Source: a virus | Direction: 5' to 3' (one strand) | DNA length: 27,638 nucleotides | Virus record (IMG/VR): IMGVR_UViG_3300030328_001637 | Location: 1 to 27,638 of that record | In this document: positions 8,953 through 26,952 of the stretch, in pieces | Layout of the letters: the number at the start of each line of letters is the position of its first letter | Numbering within the stretch: the stretch's first letter is position 1 | Made by a program: the position numbers and the translations under genes | Notes under the pieces: generated by a model | What the model was told of the DNA's origin: nothing | The model's input: only the letters and a program-made list of their open reading frames with translations | The model's database searches: none

Positions 8953-9716
8953 GTAGAATACTACAATACCTAAATCCATTTGATGAAGAGTCAAGAGCTA
9001 GAAGAGCCGATAGAAAAGGTAGAGCTGAATCATTTGGAAGTCAGTTTGCAAAAACACCTGCTGAGCAGTTAGAACTAGCTAGACAAAGTGGTGGAGATGT
9101 TGCTACATCAGCCGCTGAAGGCTTCTTAAGAGAAGGTTCACAAGGAGGTCAAATGGACTTAGGTTCAATGATGGAAGGATTTGACCCTCAAAATGCAGAA
9201 AGCGTTAGGCAGATGCAAAGAGCTTTAAATCAAGCTGGATTTACAGATGAAGAAGGTAACCCTTTATCAGAAGATGGCAAGTTAGGAGCTAAAACAACTG
9301 GTGCTTTACGAAGAATGCAAGGTGGACATAGAAGTGACAATGCTAATATGAATGAGCTAAAAGGCGGTCAAGGCAGTTTTATGGACAACTTTACTAATGT
9401 TAATGACAGCGGTAAAGATTTGCTGTATAGTCGTGATGGTCGTGGTTCTAGAACAGCAATGACAGGTGGTCAAAAAGTTGCAAGCAATATTCCAATGCTT
9501 GGTGGAATGGCATCAGATGCTATTGCTCCTGAAAACTATGTTGATTTAAACACTAAGGTACGCCAAAATACAGTTGGTGATATAAGAAGTGGTGCTAAAT
9601 CAATAGATGACGCAATAGAATCTGCCGCACCTTGGTTGGGTAATTCAAGTCTATATAGAGGCGCTAAATCAGGAATTAAAAGATTCTTTGATAGAGCCGG
9701 GGACGCAGAATATTAA
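8949..9716 (+). CDS. virion-type protein with peptidoglycan-binding-like repeat
   Basis: The gene starts at GTG (GTGA overlap with the previous stop; CGGAG upstream) and encodes 255 residues. Residues about 84-125 (SVRQMQRALNQAGFTD, then SEDGKLGAKTTGALRRMQ) match the helical peptidoglycan_binding_1 pattern, including the DGxxGxxT turn. The N-terminus is basic and helical (ESRARRADRKGRAESFG). The rest is Gly/Ser/Asn-rich, as in flexible structural proteins. It lies in the head-tail joining region, directly before a second gene with the same motif. A role in wall contact during DNA entry is possible, but such modules can also serve purely structural purposes. Confidence 0.82.
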   Translation: MSRILQYLNPFDEESRARRADRKGRAESFGSQFAKTPAEQLELARQSGGDVATSAAEGFLREGSQGGQMDLGSMMEGFDPQNAESVRQMQRALNQAGFTDEEGNPLSEDGKLGAKTTGALRRMQGGHRSDNANMNELKGGQGSFMDNFTNVNDSGKDLLYSRDGRGSRTAMTGGQKVASNIPMLGGMASDAIAPENYVDLNTKVRQNTVGDIRSGAKSIDDAIESAAPWLGNSSLYRGAKSGIKRFFDRAGDAEY

Positions 9717-14348: not shown

Positions 14349-17300
14349 ATGGCTTCTTGGAAGAAACTATTAGCTGAAAACTCTAGTGGTGTTGCCAGCG
14401 TCAGCAGTAAGCTTGGCGTTGGCACATCTTCACCTACTGCAAGACTTGAAGTAGTTCCAGCCTCTACAAGCCTTACTGATAATTCTGCTTTAGGATTATA
14501 TATAAAGGGGCAAAATGGTGGTATAAAAATAGGAAGACATAGCGACAATAATCATGGAGCTTATACCCACATATATACAGATGTTGCTAGTACAGATTTT
14601 TGCTATATTAGAAATAATGGTGGTGATACTGGTGGTGTTGCTACTGATAAAATAGCTGGAGCAGACCAAAATCCAGTAAACAACTATATTCAATTTTCTG
14701 GTTACAATAAGATATTTAGTCGAATGGGCACTACTCAGTTGACAATGGGCAGTGGTAAAGTTTATTATGAAAATGTTAATGTTGGAATAGGCACAACTTC
14801 ACCAAGTAAGTTACTTCATCTTGAATCAGCAGATAATGATATTCTGCAAATTGAAAATAGTCAAACAGACTATAGTTCTGCAAGACAAGCAAATATAAAA
14901 TTTGTAACTAACTCTACTATTTCTAATCTTAACATAGGAAACATTGGTTATCAGTCTACTGATAATACTTGGGATGGTGTAAAGTTTATTCAACAGATAA
15001 ACAATGGAAATTCTGTTCAAACTATAGCTGAAAATATTCGTGGTAATGAATGGAAATGGTATACTGGTGGAACTGTTAGGATGACTTTAAGTTCTAATGG
15101 CCCAAGCGTTTCTAATATTTATACACCATCTATAGTCGCCGCTGGTGGCAGTAGTTTAAATATGATAGCTAGTGGTACATCTGTAAGTATAGGCGCTGAT
15201 TACGATAGTACTTATGGTAATGTTGATATATATCCAACTGGTAAAAATATTGGTACTGCAAAAACAGTTCGATTTAATCCTGATAAATCATATTTTTATA
15301 AACCTATATATGTCTCAAGTGGAAATATAAATGTTGATGGCGGTGGTATTGGTATAAATATTACAGGAGCTCCAGATAATCCTTTACACATAGAAAATGG
15401 CAGTAATGGAATGGCCTCTATAAGACTTGAAGATGCTAGAACTGGCGATACTTCTATTTCTGCTGGTGGATACTTAGCTTTTTATGCAAATCATCATACC
15501 ACAAATAAGCATTTAGGTAATATTTCATATTCACAAACAGGCACTCATCATAACGCTGTTAAATTTCAAATTGCAGGTACACTTGCTGGTGTTGGTGGTA
15601 AAAAATTAATTACCAATGATGACAATGGAGTATGGAAGTTTTATAACAACTATACTGAAGATGAAGCAATGATTATTAAAAATAGTCAAGTAGGTATAAA
15701 TACATTTACTCCTGAAAGACTGTTACATTTAAAACAAGGAGCAGACGATAATGGTATAAGATTATCAGGCCATGATGACATGGCTAATCGTGATGCTGAT
15801 ATTCACTTAGACTCGTATGGTCAATTAAATATAAGAAACAATGTTCAGAGTGATGGTTTAGCTAATGCTCATATAAATTTTGCAACAAATCAAGGTGGTG
15901 CTGTTTATATGTACCCACAATTAAGAGTTGGTAACGATGGTATATCGACTCAAGGTGCAGTTGATTTAAAAATTGGTGGTAATTATGACTCTGATATAAA
16001 ACTACTTAATGCTAGTGGAAATCCGGTTTTAACAGTAGATGCTGGTACTTCAAAAGTTGGCATTGGTACAACCTCTCCTACTGAAGCTCTTCATGTAGAA
16101 GGTAAAGCTTATATAAGAAGAACTGGAAGTGCTACTGCTCATGCCGATACAGACTTGTTTGTAGCAGACTCTACTGCAGATTCTTCAACCGCTCAAATGC
16201 AAATATTAGGTGGCGCTGAAGGTTCAAGTAATCTTTATTTTTCAGATACAGCTTCTTATTCAGTTGGTGGTTTAAAGTATATTCATAGTTCTAATCATAT
16301 GCATTTTAGGTTAAATGATGCCGATAAAATGACCTTAAATAATAATGGTCTTGGTATTGGTATGAACTCGCCAACGCAAAAATTAGTTGTTTATGGTTCA
16401 ATAATGCTTGACAGTTGGATTCGAGGTTATGAAAATGCCACTGCACATACTTATGAACGAAACTGGCTGAGTTTTGATAGTGGTAGTCCAATATATAGAA
16501 CTGGTTCAGATGACAAATATCATAGGATTCAAAATTATAGCGGTACAAATATTATGTCTATTGGTGGCGCTAATAATAGGGTTGGCATAGGTACAGATAC
16601 ACCTCTTGCTAATTTACATATTTATAAGAATACTACTACAAATAACGATAAGTTATTTAGAGTATATAATGGTAGTGGATTGCAGTGGGAAATACAAGGC
16701 GATGGTAGCATGAGTGGCTATCTTGGTAATTCTATAAGTTCTGTTACAGAGCTTAAAGGTGCTTGGATGACTGATTTAAAAGTATCAGGTGGTGATGCTA
16801 GTAGTGAAGCTGAAGCTGGTGATGTAATATTTAAAACAAACAATGTTGAAAAAGCAAGGCTTACTAATACTGGACGACTTGGTATTGGAACAACCTCGCC
16901 CAGTGCACCTCTTCATGTTGTTGGTGGTATACGAACACAAAGTGCTAATAATAATATAAGTTTTTATTTAGCTAATAATAGTACTCGTCTCATGGAATTT
17001 AAGAACATGGGTGATAACAGCACCATTTTAAAAACATCAGGTGCTTACAACCTAAGATTTGGTACGAATGATGCTGATAGGTTGATGATACAACAAGGAA
17101 CAGGAAATGTCGGTATCGGCACAACTTCGCCTAGTCATAGATTGCATGTAAAAGGTTCAGGTAATACCAATCAAAGTCTTTTTCTCATTACAGATAGTGA
17201 TGATAATAGTCAATTTAGAATAGATACTTCATCTGCCGATGGTTCTCCTAATATGAGATTGTACGATACAAGTGGCTCTTCAAAAGTGGTATTTAACAGT

Positions 17301-20216
17301 AATGGCAGTTCTAAAATTATGGGTGGAAATGTTGGTATTGGTACTGACTCGCCTAGTAGAAAACTTCACATTGCTGGAAGTGGAACTGAAGTTTATGGTA
17401 GAATATCAAATAGTGGAGCAAATAGTTATGCTGGTTTAGAATTTCTAAATGATGTTGGTAGTTATACTGTTGGTATTAGAAATGATGATAAATTTGCAAT
17501 AGCTAATAATCATTCTTTTGGTGGTGGATATTCTCTTGTTCTTGATAGTAGTACTCGTATAAGCACTAGTACTAATGACCTTGGTACGCAAAACACTATA
17601 TTTGGCTATACTGCTGGAAATGCTATAGCATCTGGTGCTCAGGGCAATTCAGCTTTTGGGCATGAGGCTATGATAACTACCACAACAGGAGATAGAAATA
17701 CTGCAATAGGCTATCAATCTCTTAGACATAATGCTACTGGAGGTGAAAATACTGCAATAGGTTATGAGGCATTAAGAGCATCTAGTGGAAATTCAACTCA
17801 TAATAATACATCAATTGGTGCTTATACAATGTACAGTCTATCTACTGGTAATGAAAACATTGCTGTAGGTAATCAAGCTTTATATTATAATGCTACTGGT
17901 ACAAAAAATACTGCTATTGGTAGAAACTCAATGTTTGGTGCAAGTGCTCAATCTCATACTGGAAATACTGGATTAGGCTATAAAACTTTAGAAGCAATTA
18001 CTACAGGTAATTACAATGTTGGTATAGGGATGGATGCTTTAAAATCAATCACTACTGGCGGTAATAATATAGCTATTGGTTATGGAGCATTAGATGCTTT
18101 AACAACTACAAATAATATGGTTGCGATTGGTTATAATGCTGGTACAACAGTCGCACATTCTCAAGCAGAAGGTGGAACTTATGTAGGTTATAAAGCTGGA
18201 GAAGCAAATTATAGTGCTGGACACACTACTGCTATTGGATATGAAGCCTTAATGACCGTAACTGCAAATGGTTATAATACAGCAGTAGGGTCTCAAGCAT
18301 TAAAACTTGCAACTGGAGTAAATAATACTGCTGTTGGTGCTAGTGCTTTAATGAGTGTTACGACTGGCCACTCAAATACTGCAATGGGAAGACAAGCTGG
18401 AGATGCAATAGTAAGCGGAGAACAAAATAGTCTTTTTGGATACCAAGCAGGTACCTCGTTACAACTCGGAAGATATAATAGTGCATTTGGTTATCAATCT
18501 TTAAATAGTGACCAGCATGGAAGTTATTCAACTGCGATTGGTTACAAAGCATTATATGCTCAACTCCATGGTACAGTAAATGGAGACACTGGAAATACAG
18601 GTGTAGGTATAGGTGCTGGTTATCATAATGTAACTGGAACTAATAATACTTATATAGGCTCACAAAGTGGTCAAGGAGCCAGTGGTAATTCAAATTCAAG
18701 CAATACTGGAGTTGGTAGTAATACTTTAACTAATGTTACGACTGGATATTCTAATGTTACAATGGGCTATGAAGCTGGTAATTATATTACTAGTGGACAT
18801 GAAAATACTTTTATAGGTACAGGAGCAGGTCGTAGAATACAAACTGGAGATGAGAATGTTGGTATTGGGCATTATGCATTATCAGATGCAGTAACAGGAG
18901 ATGCTAATGTTGGAGTAGGTTATAAAGCTTTAGGTTTACTTACTTCTGGAGTAGATAATGTTGCAGTTGGAAATGAAGCAGGAGGGGCTGTAACTACTGG
19001 GTCTTATAATATTTTTATGGGCGACCACAATATAGGCAGTAGTGGTATGAATAATCATACAATACTTGGTGTCCCTGATACAGATAGAACTACAATACTT
19101 GGTAGAACAGCTCTACATAGTACATCATCTGATTACGCTACAATTAGTCACTACGAATATAGATATAGCGGAGTTAGTTATGGATTTAGACAAGCCGCTG
19201 ATGGTTCAACTAATATTAATTCTAAAGATAATACACAAATATATTTTAGTGTAAATAACGCAAGTAAGGCTACGATTAAAGGGAATTATCTTGGAGTAGG
19301 AACTACTAACCCTTCTCAAAAATTAGATGTTGTTAGTGGGACTATTAAAGCAGATGCTATAATGTATCATGGTGCTTTAAATGTAACTGCATCAAGACTA
19401 TATGGAAATGGTGCCAATACTTATTTTGATAGTGCTTATCAAATAAATTTTAGAAGTGGTTCTACTCCGGCTCAAGCTATGATTATTAAAACTGATGGGA
19501 AGGTTGGTATAGGAACTACAACTCCGGGTACTTTATTACAAGTAGGTGGAGCGGCTACATTTGACGGAGCAACTACGATTGGGAATAGCTTAGATGTACA
19601 AGGAGATTGTACTTTTGATAGTGGCTTAGAAGTTGGTGGACAAACAAATTTTCAAGATTCAGTTGATTTTGGTCAGCAAGATGTAGCTTTTACAAATTCT
19701 ACTGTTACAGGTTTAAATGTAAGCGTAGTTCCTTCTGCTTTAAGAGTAATAGAATCATCTGCTTGTAATGTAAATCAAAATGTAAATGATGCAACTGAAA
19801 ATATATATTGGAAAACAATGTCTACACATAATACTAGTCATATTACTTGGGCTGATGGTCAAGGTGGATATTATTTTGAATTTGACACTGCTGGTGAGTA
19901 CATGGTTTATTGCACATTAGTAGTAACAGATTCTGCTTCAAATGATAGATTAAATTGGGTTACTTATGTAACGCATATGAATAGTAGTAATACAGAAATA
20001 TATTCTTATGGTATTGGCGGTGGATACATTAGAGATGACCATTCACCTTATGATAGTGCTGGTCATGGTGGCGGTGTAAGATTAATTGTTAATGCTAATG
20101 ATAGGGTAAAGATAAATACAAAAAGACTTGATACAGAGACTACTAGTGGTAATGCATATTTAAACACTACAGAATCAAAAATAAAAATTGACAAAATAAC
20201 ATATAGTACAACATAG
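14349..20216 (+). CDS. giant modular tail fibre, C1q-like tip
   Basis: This 1955-residue protein is by far the longest here. It starts MASWKKLLAENSSG, like fibre 1. Residues about 23-1010, and again about 1640-1735, carry repeated G(I/V)GTTSPxxxLHV turns, about 12 in all (for example residues 146, 571, 845, 922, 996 and 1720). Residues about 1082-1562 are some 28 tandem units of about 17 residues (consensus NTAIGYxALxxxTTGxx) like the beta-roll repeats of adhesin heads. Residues about 1790-1955 end as a compact beta domain (GGYYFEFDTAGEYMVYCTLVV) resembling a C1q/TNF jelly roll, probably the receptor-binding tip. No S74-type self-cleaving chaperone is visible. AAGGA precedes the ATG. Confidence 0.9.
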   Translation: MASWKKLLAENSSGVASVSSKLGVGTSSPTARLEVVPASTSLTDNSALGLYIKGQNGGIKIGRHSDNNHGAYTHIYTDVASTDFCYIRNNGGDTGGVATDKIAGADQNPVNNYIQFSGYNKIFSRMGTTQLTMGSGKVYYENVNVGIGTTSPSKLLHLESADNDILQIENSQTDYSSARQANIKFVTNSTISNLNIGNIGYQSTDNTWDGVKFIQQINNGNSVQTIAENIRGNEWKWYTGGTVRMTLSSNGPSVSNIYTPSIVAAGGSSLNMIASGTSVSIGADYDSTYGNVDIYPTGKNIGTAKTVRFNPDKSYFYKPIYVSSGNINVDGGGIGINITGAPDNPLHIENGSNGMASIRLEDARTGDTSISAGGYLAFYANHHTTNKHLGNISYSQTGTHHNAVKFQIAGTLAGVGGKKLITNDDNGVWKFYNNYTEDEAMIIKNSQVGINTFTPERLLHLKQGADDNGIRLSGHDDMANRDADIHLDSYGQLNIRNNVQSDGLANAHINFATNQGGAVYMYPQLRVGNDGISTQGAVDLKIGGNYDSDIKLLNASGNPVLTVDAGTSKVGIGTTSPTEALHVEGKAYIRRTGSATAHADTDLFVADSTADSSTAQMQILGGAEGSSNLYFSDTASYSVGGLKYIHSSNHMHFRLNDADKMTLNNNGLGIGMNSPTQKLVVYGSIMLDSWIRGYENATAHTYERNWLSFDSGSPIYRTGSDDKYHRIQNYSGTNIMSIGGANNRVGIGTDTPLANLHIYKNTTTNNDKLFRVYNGSGLQWEIQGDGSMSGYLGNSISSVTELKGAWMTDLKVSGGDASSEAEAGDVIFKTNNVEKARLTNTGRLGIGTTSPSAPLHVVGGIRTQSANNNISFYLANNSTRLMEFKNMGDNSTILKTSGAYNLRFGTNDADRLMIQQGTGNVGIGTTSPSHRLHVKGSGNTNQSLFLITDSDDNSQFRIDTSSADGSPNMRLYDTSGSSKVVFNSNGSSKIMGGNVGIGTDSPSRKLHIAGSGTEVYGRISNSGANSYAGLEFLNDVGSYTVGIRNDDKFAIANNHSFGGGYSLVLDSSTRISTSTNDLGTQNTIFGYTAGNAIASGAQGNSAFGHEAMITTTTGDRNTAIGYQSLRHNATGGENTAIGYEALRASSGNSTHNNTSIGAYTMYSLSTGNENIAVGNQALYYNATGTKNTAIGRNSMFGASAQSHTGNTGLGYKTLEAITTGNYNVGIGMDALKSITTGGNNIAIGYGALDALTTTNNMVAIGYNAGTTVAHSQAEGGTYVGYKAGEANYSAGHTTAIGYEALMTVTANGYNTAVGSQALKLATGVNNTAVGASALMSVTTGHSNTAMGRQAGDAIVSGEQNSLFGYQAGTSLQLGRYNSAFGYQSLNSDQHGSYSTAIGYKALYAQLHGTVNGDTGNTGVGIGAGYHNVTGTNNTYIGSQSGQGASGNSNSSNTGVGSNTLTNVTTGYSNVTMGYEAGNYITSGHENTFIGTGAGRRIQTGDENVGIGHYALSDAVTGDANVGVGYKALGLLTSGVDNVAVGNEAGGAVTTGSYNIFMGDHNIGSSGMNNHTILGVPDTDRTTILGRTALHSTSSDYATISHYEYRYSGVSYGFRQAADGSTNINSKDNTQIYFSVNNASKATIKGNYLGVGTTNPSQKLDVVSGTIKADAIMYHGALNVTASRLYGNGANTYFDSAYQINFRSGSTPAQAMIIKTDGKVGIGTTTPGTLLQVGGAATFDGATTIGNSLDVQGDCTFDSGLEVGGQTNFQDSVDFGQQDVAFTNSTVTGLNVSVVPSALRVIESSACNVNQNVNDATENIYWKTMSTHNTSHITWADGQGGYYFEFDTAGEYMVYCTLVVTDSASNDRLNWVTYVTHMNSSNTEIYSYGIGGGYIRDDHSPYDSAGHGGGVRLIVNANDRVKINTKRLDTETTSGNAYLNTTESKIKIDKITYSTT
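14415..19544 (+). repeat. dispersed GIGTTSP fibre repeats in coding sequence
   Basis: About a dozen degenerate copies of a unit centred on G(I/V)GTTSPxxxLHV, each preceded by a beta stretch. Clear copies start near 14415, 14784, 16059, 16881, 17112, 17334 and 19506. Near-identical DNA (for example GTTGGTATTGGTAC variants) recurs at these sites, which gives short direct repeats within the gene that could promote recombination. Confidence 0.85.
17592..19035 (+). repeat. tandem 17-residue (about 51-bp) adhesin-head-like repeat array
   Basis: I count about 28 units, each usually starting N(T/V)(A/G)(I/V)G and ending TTG or TSG. Examples are NTAIGYQSLRHNATGGE, NTAVGASALMSVTTGHS and NVGVGYKALGLLTSGVD. 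The DNA copies are diverged, so the array is old or under diversifying change rather than freshly expanded. Three or four units are longer (for example around 18580). Confidence 0.85.
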
Positions 20217-21749: not shown

Positions 21750-22022
21750 ATGGCAGATAAAAGAATAGACGGATTTAATATCCAAGGAACAAAAATTAGT
21801 AGGGAATGTCCTGAAGAATGTTACTACTGTGGCTCTGATGATATCATTGGAGTAGAGGTTATAGGAGCTCTTGATGGCCCTATAATATGGGAATGTCAGC
21901 ATTGTAAAGAACATATGTTGAAATTCACTAGGAGTAAAACAGAGAGACTTCTTCAGCAGGCACCTGAAATAGAAATATCAGAAAAAGATTGGGAGGAAGC
22001 ATGGGCAAATGGGCCAAATTAA
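21750..22022 (+). CDS. small zinc-ribbon protein
   Basis: A 90-residue protein with Cys24-x2-Cys27 (ECYYCGSDD) and Cys49-x2-Cys52 (WECQHCKEH), a zinc-ribbon-type pair, plus extra Cys20 and His55. The C-terminal 30 residues are acidic. Zinc ribbons bind nucleic acid or protein partners; which applies here is unknown. It overlaps the metallophosphoesterase gene by 22 bases, suggesting coordinated synthesis. The start follows the 21684-21742 hairpin. Confidence 0.78.
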   Translation: MADKRIDGFNIQGTKISRECPEECYYCGSDDIIGVEVIGALDGPIIWECQHCKEHMLKFTRSKTERLLQQAPEIEISEKDWEEAWANGPN

Positions 22023-22774
22023 AGCGTGCAATAGTCACGCCTGATAAACACTTTCCTTTGCATGATGAGAAAGCTATTAGCGTTCTCTGTAAAGCAATAG
22101 AGCAAGTAAAACCAGACATCTACATAGATTTAGGAGATGTTGGGGAATGGGAATCAGTTAGTCATTGGCAATGGCGTAAAAAGAAAAGACCGCCATTAGA
22201 GTATCAATTGCCTTTTGTTGTAAAAGAAATTGAAGAAGTAAATAAAGGAATGGATATAATAGATGCTTCGCTTGATAAAGCAAAGTGCAAAGAACGACAC
22301 TTTACTGAAGGCAATCATGATGATTGGCTCAATAGATTTGTTGAAGAGAATCCATACCTTAAAGGTTATAAGTTTAAGGATGCTGTTAAGCTTAAAGAGC
22401 GTGGTTATAAATACCACCCTATTGGAAAGCCACTTAAGATTGGTAATTTGTATTTCTACCATGGACACCATTACGCTGGTGTCAATCATACTAGAAATCA
22501 TTTACTTAGGATGGGTGGTAATGTTATGTATGGTCATCATCACGATATGCAACAATCGTCTGTAACGCATATGGATGGGCCTAAATCAGCTTGGTCTATA
22601 GGTTGTTTAAAAGACATGACTGCAGAGGCTAATACTTGGTTAGGTAATAGACAGCACAATTGGCAATTAGGATTTGCTATAGTAAACTTTTATAGAGGAG
22701 GTAACTTTAATGTTGAACTATGTACTATTATCAATGGTAAGACAGTAGTAGATGGAAAACTAATAGAGGGATAA
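22001..22774 (+). CDS. calcineurin-like metallophosphoesterase
   Basis: The preferred ATG at 22001 has GGGAGGAAGC before it; a TTG at 21989 would add four residues only. The 257-residue product has all the metallophosphoesterase metal-binding motifs: DKH (Asp15, His17), LGDVGE (Asp46), GNHD (Asn105, His106), HGHH (His154 to 157) and GHHH (178-181). It should hydrolyse phosphoesters, perhaps nucleotides or nucleic acid, but the substrate is not readable. A free-standing enzyme between membrane and tail genes is unusual. Length is normal for single-domain members. Confidence 0.9.
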   Translation: MGKWAKLKRAIVTPDKHFPLHDEKAISVLCKAIEQVKPDIYIDLGDVGEWESVSHWQWRKKKRPPLEYQLPFVVKEIEEVNKGMDIIDASLDKAKCKERHFTEGNHDDWLNRFVEENPYLKGYKFKDAVKLKERGYKYHPIGKPLKIGNLYFYHGHHYAGVNHTRNHLLRMGGNVMYGHHHDMQQSSVTHMDGPKSAWSIGCLKDMTAEANTWLGNRQHNWQLGFAIVNFYRGGNFNVELCTIINGKTVVDGKLIEG

Positions 22775-23035
22775 ATGCCAAAATCAGTAGCAGAAATAAA
22801 GTTATTTAACGCAGGAATAGTATCAACTCCAGATTCTAAAGACATTCCAACTGACGCATCAGACTATTCTTTAAATGTAGAGCCTTTAACAAGTGATGGT
22901 AAAGTTAAGGGTAGAAAAACCGAAGTATATGCTACATCATTAGGTGGTTTTTCATCACAAAGTATATCAGGAGTTAGTACGGTAACTGTTGGTTTTTATG
23001 CCGCTTCTAGTGGTGGTGGTGGAGGAGGTGGCTAA
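22775..23035 (+). CDS. N-terminal-like piece of the tail nozzle protein (split gene), poly-Gly end
   Basis: An 86-residue protein (GAGGG upstream). The segment IKLFNAGIVSTPDSKDIP, then SDYSLNVEPLTSDGKVKGR, reads like the opening of podovirus nozzle/stabilisation proteins, where 'FxxGxxTxxDPxDxP...A...xNVxxxxDGxL' introduces a beta-propeller. Here it ends after 86 residues in seven glycines. The Gly codons include AGGAGG at 23023-23028, the ribosome site of the next gene, and the two genes overlap as TAATG. The piece may be a separate subunit, or the first part of the next protein split from it. Confidence 0.68.
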   Translation: MPKSVAEIKLFNAGIVSTPDSKDIPTDASDYSLNVEPLTSDGKVKGRKTEVYATSLGGFSSQSISGVSTVTVGFYAASSGGGGGGG

Positions 23036-23037
23036 TG
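23023..23037 (+). promoter_or_regulatory. coding-embedded Shine-Dalgarno (AGGAGG) for the large nozzle-like gene
   Basis: AGGAGG (23023-23028) is six bases before the ATG at 23035 and lies within Gly codons of the upstream gene, which stops at 23033-23035. The strong site plus TAATG overlap implies efficient re-initiation or coupled translation of the two products. Confidence 0.7.
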
Positions 23038-26000
23038 GCTACATACTCAAGTAGTAAATTAAAGATTAGCGGTACTTTTAATAACACAGTTAAGGTTGAT
23101 TATGAAGTAAGAGTGACTCCTAGTGGGACATCTACATTTGGCGTAAAAATAACAAATCATGACAGAGATGAGTTTTTAAAATTTACACATGGTTCTGCAA
23201 CAGTAGAAGTTAGGCAACCTGTAGGGGATGGAACATTTGAAGCTCATACATTTGGAGTTCCGATATGGGTTGGTGATTTTTTGTATGAAAATACAGGTGG
23301 TGTAAATGTTACATCAAATAGTAATAAGTTTATAGGTAGAGTAACTGCTATAACTACTGGAACAGAAGGTCAATCAGTAAAATCATTTACAATAGACAAT
23401 GGAGGTGGCACAGCAGGTATAAGTAATAGTGTATCTTGGTCTGGTGATACAGAAGGTAGTGTTTCTTATGTAACTCAAATTAAAGATTCTGGAACTAGTT
23501 GCACAAGTCATGATGCTGATAATGAAAAATTTGGTTCAGGTAAAGCATATATGCATGGCATAGAATTTAGATTTAACGGAAGTATGAACGCCGCTCCTCC
23601 TACTTCTGGAAGTTATCATTACTTTGCTTTTTCAGGATACCCTACAAAAGATTTTAAAGCAGATAGTATAATTAAAGTGCAAAAAGGTGATAAGCATCAT
23701 ATAATAGGATGGTTAGAACGAGATGAAGCTTTTACAAAAATAGAAGATATATATACTGAAGCTAATAATGTGAATCAACCTTCAGAACAAGAATTTCTTC
23801 AGTATGGTATCCCTATATTAAAAAAACCTGTATTTAATCCTAGGGGAGATGATATTTTTGTTGGTGTAGGGCCCAATGAAGATAATGTGTATATGGGTTA
23901 TCCAAATATTAAACAATTTGGGCAAGATGTAGGGCAAGAATTTATAGTAGAGAATGGAATATTGAATGTAGATATGACTGTATTACCATCAATGGAAGAA
24001 TTTGTATTGCCCAATAATAGCAATACTGGAGCTGACGCTGATGGTTTAGATGTAAACATTCTTCATTCTAACCAGCTTATAGTTGGGTATGTTAAAGGTA
24101 GTAATTTCTTGATAAAGGCAACTAGAACTACAGGGGTTATAGAAACCATTAATATGGATGGTACTATAAAAGGCTTGTATTTAAATCATGAGACATCAAA
24201 TCAAGTATGGGTCTTATTAGATAGCGTTGATGCTTATAGAGTTGCATTAGTCAGTATTGGAGATAATACTACTGCTATGGCTATATCTGAAAATAGAGTT
24301 TATAGATTACAAGGAACTTCTTCTAATGATAAAATGATAACACCTTTTGATAAAGAAGATGTAGTTATGACAGATTTAATAGTTAATGATAATTACATAT
24401 ATGTATTAGCTTCTGCTCCTAATTATTACGATAGTGAATCAACTGTAAAAGATAAGTGTTTTGGTTCATTAGCTTCTAGAGAAGCTTATATATGGAGAAG
24501 TGATAGTATAGCATCTGCTCCGGGTAGCTATGTAAATAGTCAAGCTTATCATAATTTAAATTGTGTTGACATAACTCCAGCTTTTTCAAGTGATGAAGAT
24601 GCTTCTAATTCTCAAAGAGATGCATATTTTATACACTTTACTCATATAGATTGGGAATCGTGGACAGAAGACCAAGGAAGCGGTGGCGGTAGATATGTTG
24701 AGAATGCATCTTATACAGGAGGGGGAACAGAGCAATATAAATTTTTAAGGTCTCCTGTACCAAAAGGATTATCCTTATATAGCAACGAAGCAAATAAAGA
24801 AAGTATATGTGTAGCTATAGGTTATACAAATAACAGTTTTCTTGAAGGAAGTGATGGATTTTATACAGTTTATGATACTCATACAGAACAAGATGAATCA
24901 GGTGGAGATGGAGAAAAAATAACAACAGAAAAATGCATTATAGGCCCTTTAATTAAACAAGATAGTGGAGATGTAATAGTTGGTTCACATTTAGAAATAT
25001 TTTATGATTCAGAATCATCTGTAAAAAGTTCAAATAGTTCATATGCTGGTGTAAAAAGAATTATGCTAGATAATTCTGATGCTAATAATGCTACACCTAC
25101 TAAATATACACTTGGTGATGCTCAAAATTTAACAGAATGGAATATATATGGCTCTGGTGAAAACATAGGGACAGCTATAAATTCTATTTCTACTTTTATA
25201 TCAGATACTAGTAGAGAGTTTCCAAGAGCTTTAATATACTCTACAGATTTAAATGTAGTTTTCCTTGATATGGTAAACGATATTACTGATGTAAAATTAA
25301 AAGCAAGTGAAAAATCTAAAAGATGTTTTTTAAACAATGCTTTAGCTGATAGGGAATTATTTGAGCCATCTCAAGATACTGGATGGAAATTAGCTTCTCA
25401 GCAATTTAATTATATATCATCACAATCAAATAACGAGTTTGATTGGCTTGCTTGTTCTCCTAGTACTAACTTTACAATATATAATTTAGTTTCTCCTAGA
25501 GTAGCAGATGGAGATACTGCTTGGGCTAAAATGGATATTAAATCTGCTATTGATGTAGAAGTAACTCACTTAAGCTCTGGAGAAGAAGATTTTAATAACT
25601 TATTGCCAGATTCATCTGATGGAGATACTGATGCTAAGTATTATAAAAATTTTTACAGAGTTTCTTTAATGTATGATGGATATCAAGAAAGCGTTCTTGC
25701 TTATAGTTTATATTCCAGTTCTACAAATCCTTCTAGATATGGTCATCAAATAAAAATTACAGCTAATCCTAGTTCTTTATCTAAAAGATTGTCTCATATA
25801 AATATATATAGAGGTAAAGCATATAATGCTAATGCAGTAGATAGTGATTTTAATTACAATTTAGTAGAATCTGTAGCATTTCAAAGCGTTGGTTGGAAAA
25901 GTAGCAGTACTGCAGGGATGCTAGAATACATCGTAAAAGACCATAAAGGCACCAATTTCGGAGGTTATGAATCTTTAACAGGTATAAGTCCAGAAATGGC

Positions 26001-26952
26001 AATTAATCATTTAAATTATGGATTATCAGAACAATGTGCTGGTTACTTGTTTGTAGCAGACGCAAATAATTCTGAAATTAATAATGTATCTAATTATATA
26101 TTTAGAAGTAAACCCGGTAAATATAGTATTTTTAATTGGGCTACTGAATATATAGTATTACAAGATAAACCAAAAGCTTTAAAATCTTATAATAATTTGC
26201 TATATGCATTTAGTCCTAGTACAATATATACAATAAATCCAGATAACTTATCTGTTATAGATAAAATGGAAGGTATGGGTTGTTTAGATAAAGATAGTAT
26301 TATAGCAACTGATTTTGGTATGTTTTTTGCAGATAAATATGGAGTGTATATACACAATGGAAGAAAAGCTGAGGTTATATCACACGCAATACATACATCA
26401 GACCATACAGATATGGCAAATTTTACTTGGGATAGTATAAGCGCATCCTTAGAAACAAATCCACCAAAATTAGCATTTGATGGAGAACGAAAAGCATTAT
26501 TAATTATTTTTAAAGTTAGTAATGTTAGTTATGCTTGGGTATATAGTGTACTCTCTAAAAGGTGGGACTTTTGGAGTTTTACAAACCCTATAACAGCAGT
26601 AACACAAGGTAAATATGGTGAGGTAATAGCATCAGACGGAAAATTATTACAAATAGCAACAGGAACATCAAGGAAGCCGTGGGAGTTTCATACAAAGAAG
26701 ATTACTGCAGGTTTTGATACCTACGATAAATCTTTTACGGAAGTTCATGTTGAGGGAAATAGTGGCTTAGAAACTAAATATAAAACATCTGGCGTTTCTT
26801 CTCTACAATCGTTAAGTTCTAATAGAGTTAATTCTTCTCATAGGAAAGCTAAATGGTTGCAATTAAAAATTTCAGATAGTAATGGAACTAGAAGCTTAGA
26901 TTCATTAGGAATCCATTTAAGACCTATTAAAGCAAGGAGTACTAAAGTATGA
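23035..26952 (+). CDS. large nozzle-like tail protein (beta-propeller type)
   Basis: This 1305-residue protein is the main candidate for the tail nozzle/stabilisation protein that plugs the head and forms the short tube. Residues 1 to about 208 are beta-rich and look like an extra domain. After about residue 209 (IIKVQKGDKHHIIGWL) a long propeller-like series follows. The C-terminal quarter has ALKSYNNLLYAFSPSTIYTI, GMFFADKYGVYIHNGRKAEVI and YAWVYSVLSKRWDFWSF, the blade-type 'GVY...NG...' and 'W.V....' motifs of nozzle proteins. The last 100 residues are Ser-rich beta. It is roughly twice the size I would expect for a nozzle, so it may carry inserted domains. Confidence 0.82.
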   Translation: MATYSSSKLKISGTFNNTVKVDYEVRVTPSGTSTFGVKITNHDRDEFLKFTHGSATVEVRQPVGDGTFEAHTFGVPIWVGDFLYENTGGVNVTSNSNKFIGRVTAITTGTEGQSVKSFTIDNGGGTAGISNSVSWSGDTEGSVSYVTQIKDSGTSCTSHDADNEKFGSGKAYMHGIEFRFNGSMNAAPPTSGSYHYFAFSGYPTKDFKADSIIKVQKGDKHHIIGWLERDEAFTKIEDIYTEANNVNQPSEQEFLQYGIPILKKPVFNPRGDDIFVGVGPNEDNVYMGYPNIKQFGQDVGQEFIVENGILNVDMTVLPSMEEFVLPNNSNTGADADGLDVNILHSNQLIVGYVKGSNFLIKATRTTGVIETINMDGTIKGLYLNHETSNQVWVLLDSVDAYRVALVSIGDNTTAMAISENRVYRLQGTSSNDKMITPFDKEDVVMTDLIVNDNYIYVLASAPNYYDSESTVKDKCFGSLASREAYIWRSDSIASAPGSYVNSQAYHNLNCVDITPAFSSDEDASNSQRDAYFIHFTHIDWESWTEDQGSGGGRYVENASYTGGGTEQYKFLRSPVPKGLSLYSNEANKESICVAIGYTNNSFLEGSDGFYTVYDTHTEQDESGGDGEKITTEKCIIGPLIKQDSGDVIVGSHLEIFYDSESSVKSSNSSYAGVKRIMLDNSDANNATPTKYTLGDAQNLTEWNIYGSGENIGTAINSISTFISDTSREFPRALIYSTDLNVVFLDMVNDITDVKLKASEKSKRCFLNNALADRELFEPSQDTGWKLASQQFNYISSQSNNEFDWLACSPSTNFTIYNLVSPRVADGDTAWAKMDIKSAIDVEVTHLSSGEEDFNNLLPDSSDGDTDAKYYKNFYRVSLMYDGYQESVLAYSLYSSSTNPSRYGHQIKITANPSSLSKRLSHINIYRGKAYNANAVDSDFNYNLVESVAFQSVGWKSSSTAGMLEYIVKDHKGTNFGGYESLTGISPEMAINHLNYGLSEQCAGYLFVADANNSEINNVSNYIFRSKPGKYSIFNWATEYIVLQDKPKALKSYNNLLYAFSPSTIYTINPDNLSVIDKMEGMGCLDKDSIIATDFGMFFADKYGVYIHNGRKAEVISHAIHTSDHTDMANFTWDSISASLETNPPKLAFDGERKALLIIFKVSNVSYAWVYSVLSKRWDFWSFTNPITAVTQGKYGEVIASDGKLLQIATGTSRKPWEFHTKKITAGFDTYDKSFTEVHVEGNSGLETKYKTSGVSSLQSLSSNRVNSSHRKAKWLQLKISDSNGTRSLDSLGIHLRPIKARSTKV

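Follow-up and report, generated by a model that had tools for sequence, protein, structure and literature searches.

A probable phage tail nozzle protein made as two chains from overlapping genes

Do two overlapping phage genes encode separate tail proteins, or one nozzle protein in two pieces? The question is raised by IMG/VR virus record IMGVR_UViG_3300030328_001637, a stretch of 27,638 bases (G+C 35%) from an uncultivated marine-type phage that was analysed over its whole length and is called the window here. We conclude, with a probability of roughly 80%, that the two genes specify a single phage tail nozzle protein made as two chains, which would be translationally coupled and associated in trans. 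To our knowledge, the solved nozzle proteins are all single chains.

The two genes and their junction

The original prediction, made from the window alone, described an 86-aa ORF ending in seven glycines, an AGGAGG among the glycine codons six bases before the ATG of a 1305-aa ORF, and a TAATG in which stop and start overlap; each of these is present as described (Table 1), the smaller ORF having the C-terminus ...GFYAASSGGGGGGG before its stop codon. The overlap alone is ordinary in this genome, since further TAATG overlaps lie at 9716, 10354, 12118, 12372 and 12716. Terminase, portal and major head proteins are identifiable in the window through PHROGs. Directly upstream of the 86-aa ORF is a metallophosphoesterase-like gene (PHROG 221, 21989-22774), a homologue of which occupies the same position in the relatives with upstream ORFs listed (L002, L018, L021-L031), and 14349-20216 encodes a 1955-aa protein with matches to tail spike and virion structural PHROGs 4636, 6002 and 23837.

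Table 1. Features of the two-gene locus in the window.
Feature	Position	Strand	Remarks
Small chain, 86 aa	22775..23035	+	Residues 1-47 conserved; 48-86 variable low-complexity tail
Seven Gly codons (GGT GGT GGT GGA GGA GGT GGC), small-chain C-terminal tail	23012..23032	+	
AGGAGG Shine-Dalgarno site within Gly codons	23023..23028	+	ATG six bases downstream
TAATG stop-start overlap, 1 nt	23033..23037	+	TAA 23033-23035, ATG 23035-23037
Large chain of the putative split nozzle protein, 1305 aa	23035..26952	+	
N-terminal beta-rich domain of large chain, residues 1 to ~201	23035..23637	+	
Predicted propeller-type nozzle body, large-chain residues ~202-1305	23638..26952	+	Most conserved from ~residue 866

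Direct searches of PHROGs, Pfam and PDB sequences returned nothing useful for either chain, the 86-mer included, and matched neither chain to a nozzle; anything near E 0.01-1 we took for a chance match. This is likewise the case for the SU10 and T7 nozzles, which have no detectable sequence similarity to known nozzles (PMC9509320). Relatives of either chain were absent from bacterial and archaeal genomes, and INPHARED phage records yielded none beyond one chance-level match.

Single-gene relatives and the nozzle fold

Relatives of both chains were gathered by single-sequence and profile scans of IMG/VR, and every locus holding the conserved C-terminal region was classified, with redundant contigs counted. 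The outcome is 61 split loci (32 distinct junctions) versus 48 fused loci, the remainder being cut by contig ends; the outgroup L033 was scored as fused on a weak 15-bit match to the segment corresponding to the small chain, which we call the strap. The split relatives of the 86-mer are separate genes, mostly of 77-101 aa, and the large chain of the split loci has no match to the strap. Two first genes, those of L089 (383 aa) and L104 (382 aa), have ~300 extra residues between strap and break. In the near relatives (L002-L009, L018, L039) a gene of 80-86 aa is always retained with TAATG behind it, and the large homologous gene comes next wherever the contig continues; their contigs carry different metagenome identifiers, so a local error does not account for the split.

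The original prediction had proposed looking for fused relatives, and the 48 loci supply them: single-gene proteins, mostly ~1000-3570 aa, with the strap at the N-terminus and the same propeller C-terminus, each carrying the conserved C-terminal region. With the strap profile, single ORFs 2649-3570 aa long are hit at their N-terminal end at E 6e-16 to 6e-19, and fused forms free of giant inserts include L041 (1054 aa), L058 (1265 aa) and L097 (1024 aa). Both chains are thus shown to be homologous to parts of single-gene proteins, and the split to be conserved and linked to a beta domain described below. It is through these fused relatives, and not through direct database matches, that the proposed likeness of the 86-mer to nozzle N-termini is confirmed. 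Several fused ORFs (L076, L081, L086, L088, L096, L110 and others) reach ~2,400-3,570 residues, with differing sequence inserted after the common strap, and are very large for nozzle-type genes.

Residues 1-47 of the small chain are under purifying selection, with pN of 0.14-0.19 and pS of 0.56-0.81 between the window and five relatives. The residues G, P, Q, N, S, T, D and E make up 72% of the last 20 positions of the small proteins versus 58% at positions -65 to -45, and the variable Gly/Gln/Pro-rich tail looks like a remnant of an interdomain linker.

Modelling shows a nozzle-like predicted fold in a fused relative. In Foldseek, the AlphaFold2 model of L041 (pTM 0.48, with pLDDT under 50 in the strap) matches the SU10 nozzle and the tail protein of Pa223 best, with cyanophage A4, GP4 and P22 lower down. 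By VIA-align it matches Pa223 (9nwi) at Z 17.0 over 369 aligned residues at 4.6 A, the crAss001 muzzle (7qok) at Z 16.7 over 469 residues at 6.6 A, and the nozzles of GP4 (8jov), SU10 and P22 (gp10) at Z 15.7, 15.6 and 14.8. Generic propellers reach nearly equal Z; what points to a nozzle is the longer coverage, along with how many solved nozzles stand in the top rows. The alignments start at ~residue 62 of L041 versus residue 53-69 of the solved nozzle chains, which suggests that the small chain corresponds to the stretch preceding blade 1. In SU10 an N-terminal platform segment leads into propeller blade 1 (PMC9509320), and by position in the models the small chain would be such a platform or ring-joining segment ahead of the propeller. 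Together with the single-ORF relatives, the fold of L041 thus supports the split protein that had been proposed for this locus.

The large chain of the window was modelled over residues 1-1200 (pTM 0.49), and both this model and that of L041 match beta-propellers at Z 14-18. The top Foldseek matches of the window model are large eukaryotic propeller proteins (DDB1) and generic propellers rather than nozzles, and we read the DDB1-type matches as reflecting the shared propeller fold only. Since most rows place the start of the propeller match at residue 201-209, residues 1-200 appear to be an addition, and the extra beta-rich stretch of about 208 residues that had been described ahead of the propeller is borne out.

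Among known systems, SU10 gp17 (7z47/7z4f/7z4b) likewise has a platform segment, then a propeller core, and extra domains in the propeller region; it differs in being one chain with Ig-like domains inserted between blades 2 and 3 (PMC9509320), whereas the extra domain of the window stands at the gene junction, ahead of the propeller. The phiCrAss001 muzzle gp44 (7qok/7qol) is similarly a large nozzle-type protein, with a ring-joining domain and a seven-bladed propeller bearing big insertions (PMC10172136), but is a single chain of ~1360 residues to which we detected no sequence similarity. The nozzle-stabilisation proteins of P22 (gp10)/Sf6, GP4 and Pa223 have a propeller from residue ~54-60, equivalent to its position after the strap in L041, and are, unlike the proteins here, compact (470-520 residues) and encoded by a single gene. 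Solved nozzles are one polypeptide; here 61 loci, the window among them, have two genes, and the 48 fused loci have one.

The added beta domain and the history of the split

A related beta-strand motif, roughly [LI]xGT[YF]xGT...YxV, opens the large chain in 61 of 61 split loci, a count made with a profile partly trained on those same sequences. No fused protein among the 48 has the motif at a credible E-value, the best match (E 0.41) being in the wrong place. When training was restricted to the distant L021 group, the resulting profile still picked out the window (E 0.006) and its sister L039 (E 0.004) from 6,523 ORFs. A profile-profile comparison between the window group and the L021 group yielded E 4e-7 across 40 columns; L066 matches weakly. 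Beyond the motif, the added region varies by group, from ~100 residues in the L021 group to 200 in the window group. Because the motif occurs in all split and no fused forms, the break goes with the added domain. It is further tied to the domain by L089 and L104, in which the break is still near the beta motif and not directly after the strap. The split thus comes with a beta domain at the beginning of the second gene, a link that the original prediction had not drawn.

A tree of the C-terminal region (83 rows) has split forms in four places, with the window beside L039, L009, L007 and L002. A single split clade is mildly rejected by the AU test (p 0.025), a result made unsure by long branches and by the choice of the group after the tree was seen; a single origin of the split is accordingly disfavoured by tree and test, unsurely. 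As the solved nozzles and the outgroup are single-chain, the fused form is likely ancestral, and we infer that the direction was likely from fused to split. The tree fits several separate breaks as well as it fits the transfer of a single split module. Judged on the sequences compared, the split is real, old and recurring, and always lies beside the same kind of extra domain.

Translation across the junction and alternative readings

The anti-Shine-Dalgarno duplex energy at the large-chain start, -16.6 kcal/mol, is the strongest of the 26 window gene starts scored (the next is -13.1), a value reached by ~0.03% of random 17-mers from the window. The small-chain tail of sister L039 has eight glycines, and those of other relatives are rich in Q/P/N/S or short. 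Over 30 junctions the Gly count of the tail correlates with duplex energy (Spearman -0.74), strong sites occurring mainly with Gly-rich ends; the correlation is partly expected, because GGA-GGN codons make a Shine-Dalgarno sequence. At the junctions of many other relatives the site is weak or absent. The poly-Gly tail and the strong ribosome site are not conserved, and the tight overlap is kept by most relatives. We rejected poly-Gly as a conserved functional motif, Gly-rich ends being found only in the close group and a few others. The doubling of glycine codons as a ribosome-binding site, which the original prediction had pointed out, is therefore genuine in this phage but secondary, being confined to few lineages and not tied to the split as such.

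At all 32 distinct junctions the two genes are spaced by -4 to +3 nt, and at 22 of them by -1 nt, so that stop and start overlap or lie within a few nucleotides throughout, as in termination-reinitiation. Overlaps of -1 or -4 nt are well placed for termination-reinitiation and are over-represented where genes encode the subunits of heteromeric complexes (PMC10666635). The present genes resemble such pairs in their overlap and in probably encoding parts of one complex, and differ in that some relatives are spaced at 0 to +3 nt; by analogy, we infer that translation of the two chains is coupled. Termination-reinitiation at TAATG would make both chains in step, reinforced in this phage by the Shine-Dalgarno site within the glycine codons, and relatives with little or no such site would depend on the stop-start overlap alone. 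The 86-aa chain would be the N-terminal strap of the nozzle platform, the part seated on the adaptor ring, and the 1305-aa chain would comprise the added beta domain, then the propeller and the remainder. At the 5' edge of the added domain, the break would fall where a single-chain nozzle goes over from its platform segment to propeller blade 1, with the two chains probably associating in trans.

GGT repeats are a plausible indel site, and a sequencing or assembly error there might have broken one gene. We give this almost no credence, since the split recurs at 32 distinct junctions on contigs of many metagenomes, most of them without a Gly repeat; sister L039 has one Gly codon more and the same TAATG; and the second chain opens with a motif that fused forms lack. 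Programmed -1 frameshifting or stop readthrough, which would join the ORFs into a fused product, fares slightly better, though it is still very unlikely. Frameshifting is known to be stimulated by strong SD-like sites within genes; the large ORF is moreover in the -1 frame at 27 of 32 distinct junctions, a frame that the 1-nt stop-start overlap gives automatically. The relative frame is nevertheless 0 in L104, L108, L112 and L127 and +1 in L057, and this variation among -1, 0 and +1 argues against conserved programmed frameshifting, as do the lack of the Gly/SD motif at the junctions of most relatives and the start codon present at every junction. A programmed frameshift gene, which would be expected to keep its relative frame and a slippery site, was rejected, as the junctions share neither one frame nor a sequence.

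The small protein could also be an independent tail or assembly protein (e.g. an assembly factor) that has a common origin with the nozzle N-terminus and works apart from the nozzle. Its separate gene and variable C-terminus would fit, but 48 fused loci have this very segment covalently joined as the N-terminus of the same propeller protein, and, with no strap match in the large chain of split loci, the nozzle would otherwise lack this segment. We regard this reading as unlikely, if somewhat less so than frameshifting, and return to a nozzle of two associated chains.

How such a nozzle arose can be suggested only tentatively, at rather less than even odds: insertion of a beta domain (for example, a dock for a fibre or needle) into the platform-propeller loop may repeatedly have led to an obligate two-chain nozzle, in which a separate strap would clamp each subunit on the adaptor and translational coupling would provide the stoichiometry. 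Present on dozens of phage contigs, mostly of marine type, and bound up with one domain, the stable split at the probable platform-propeller hinge would offer a natural experiment on how the machinery of phage tails copes with gene fission and turns it to use, and profiles are now available to find nozzle genes in a group that has gone without annotation for want of a PHROG or Pfam match.
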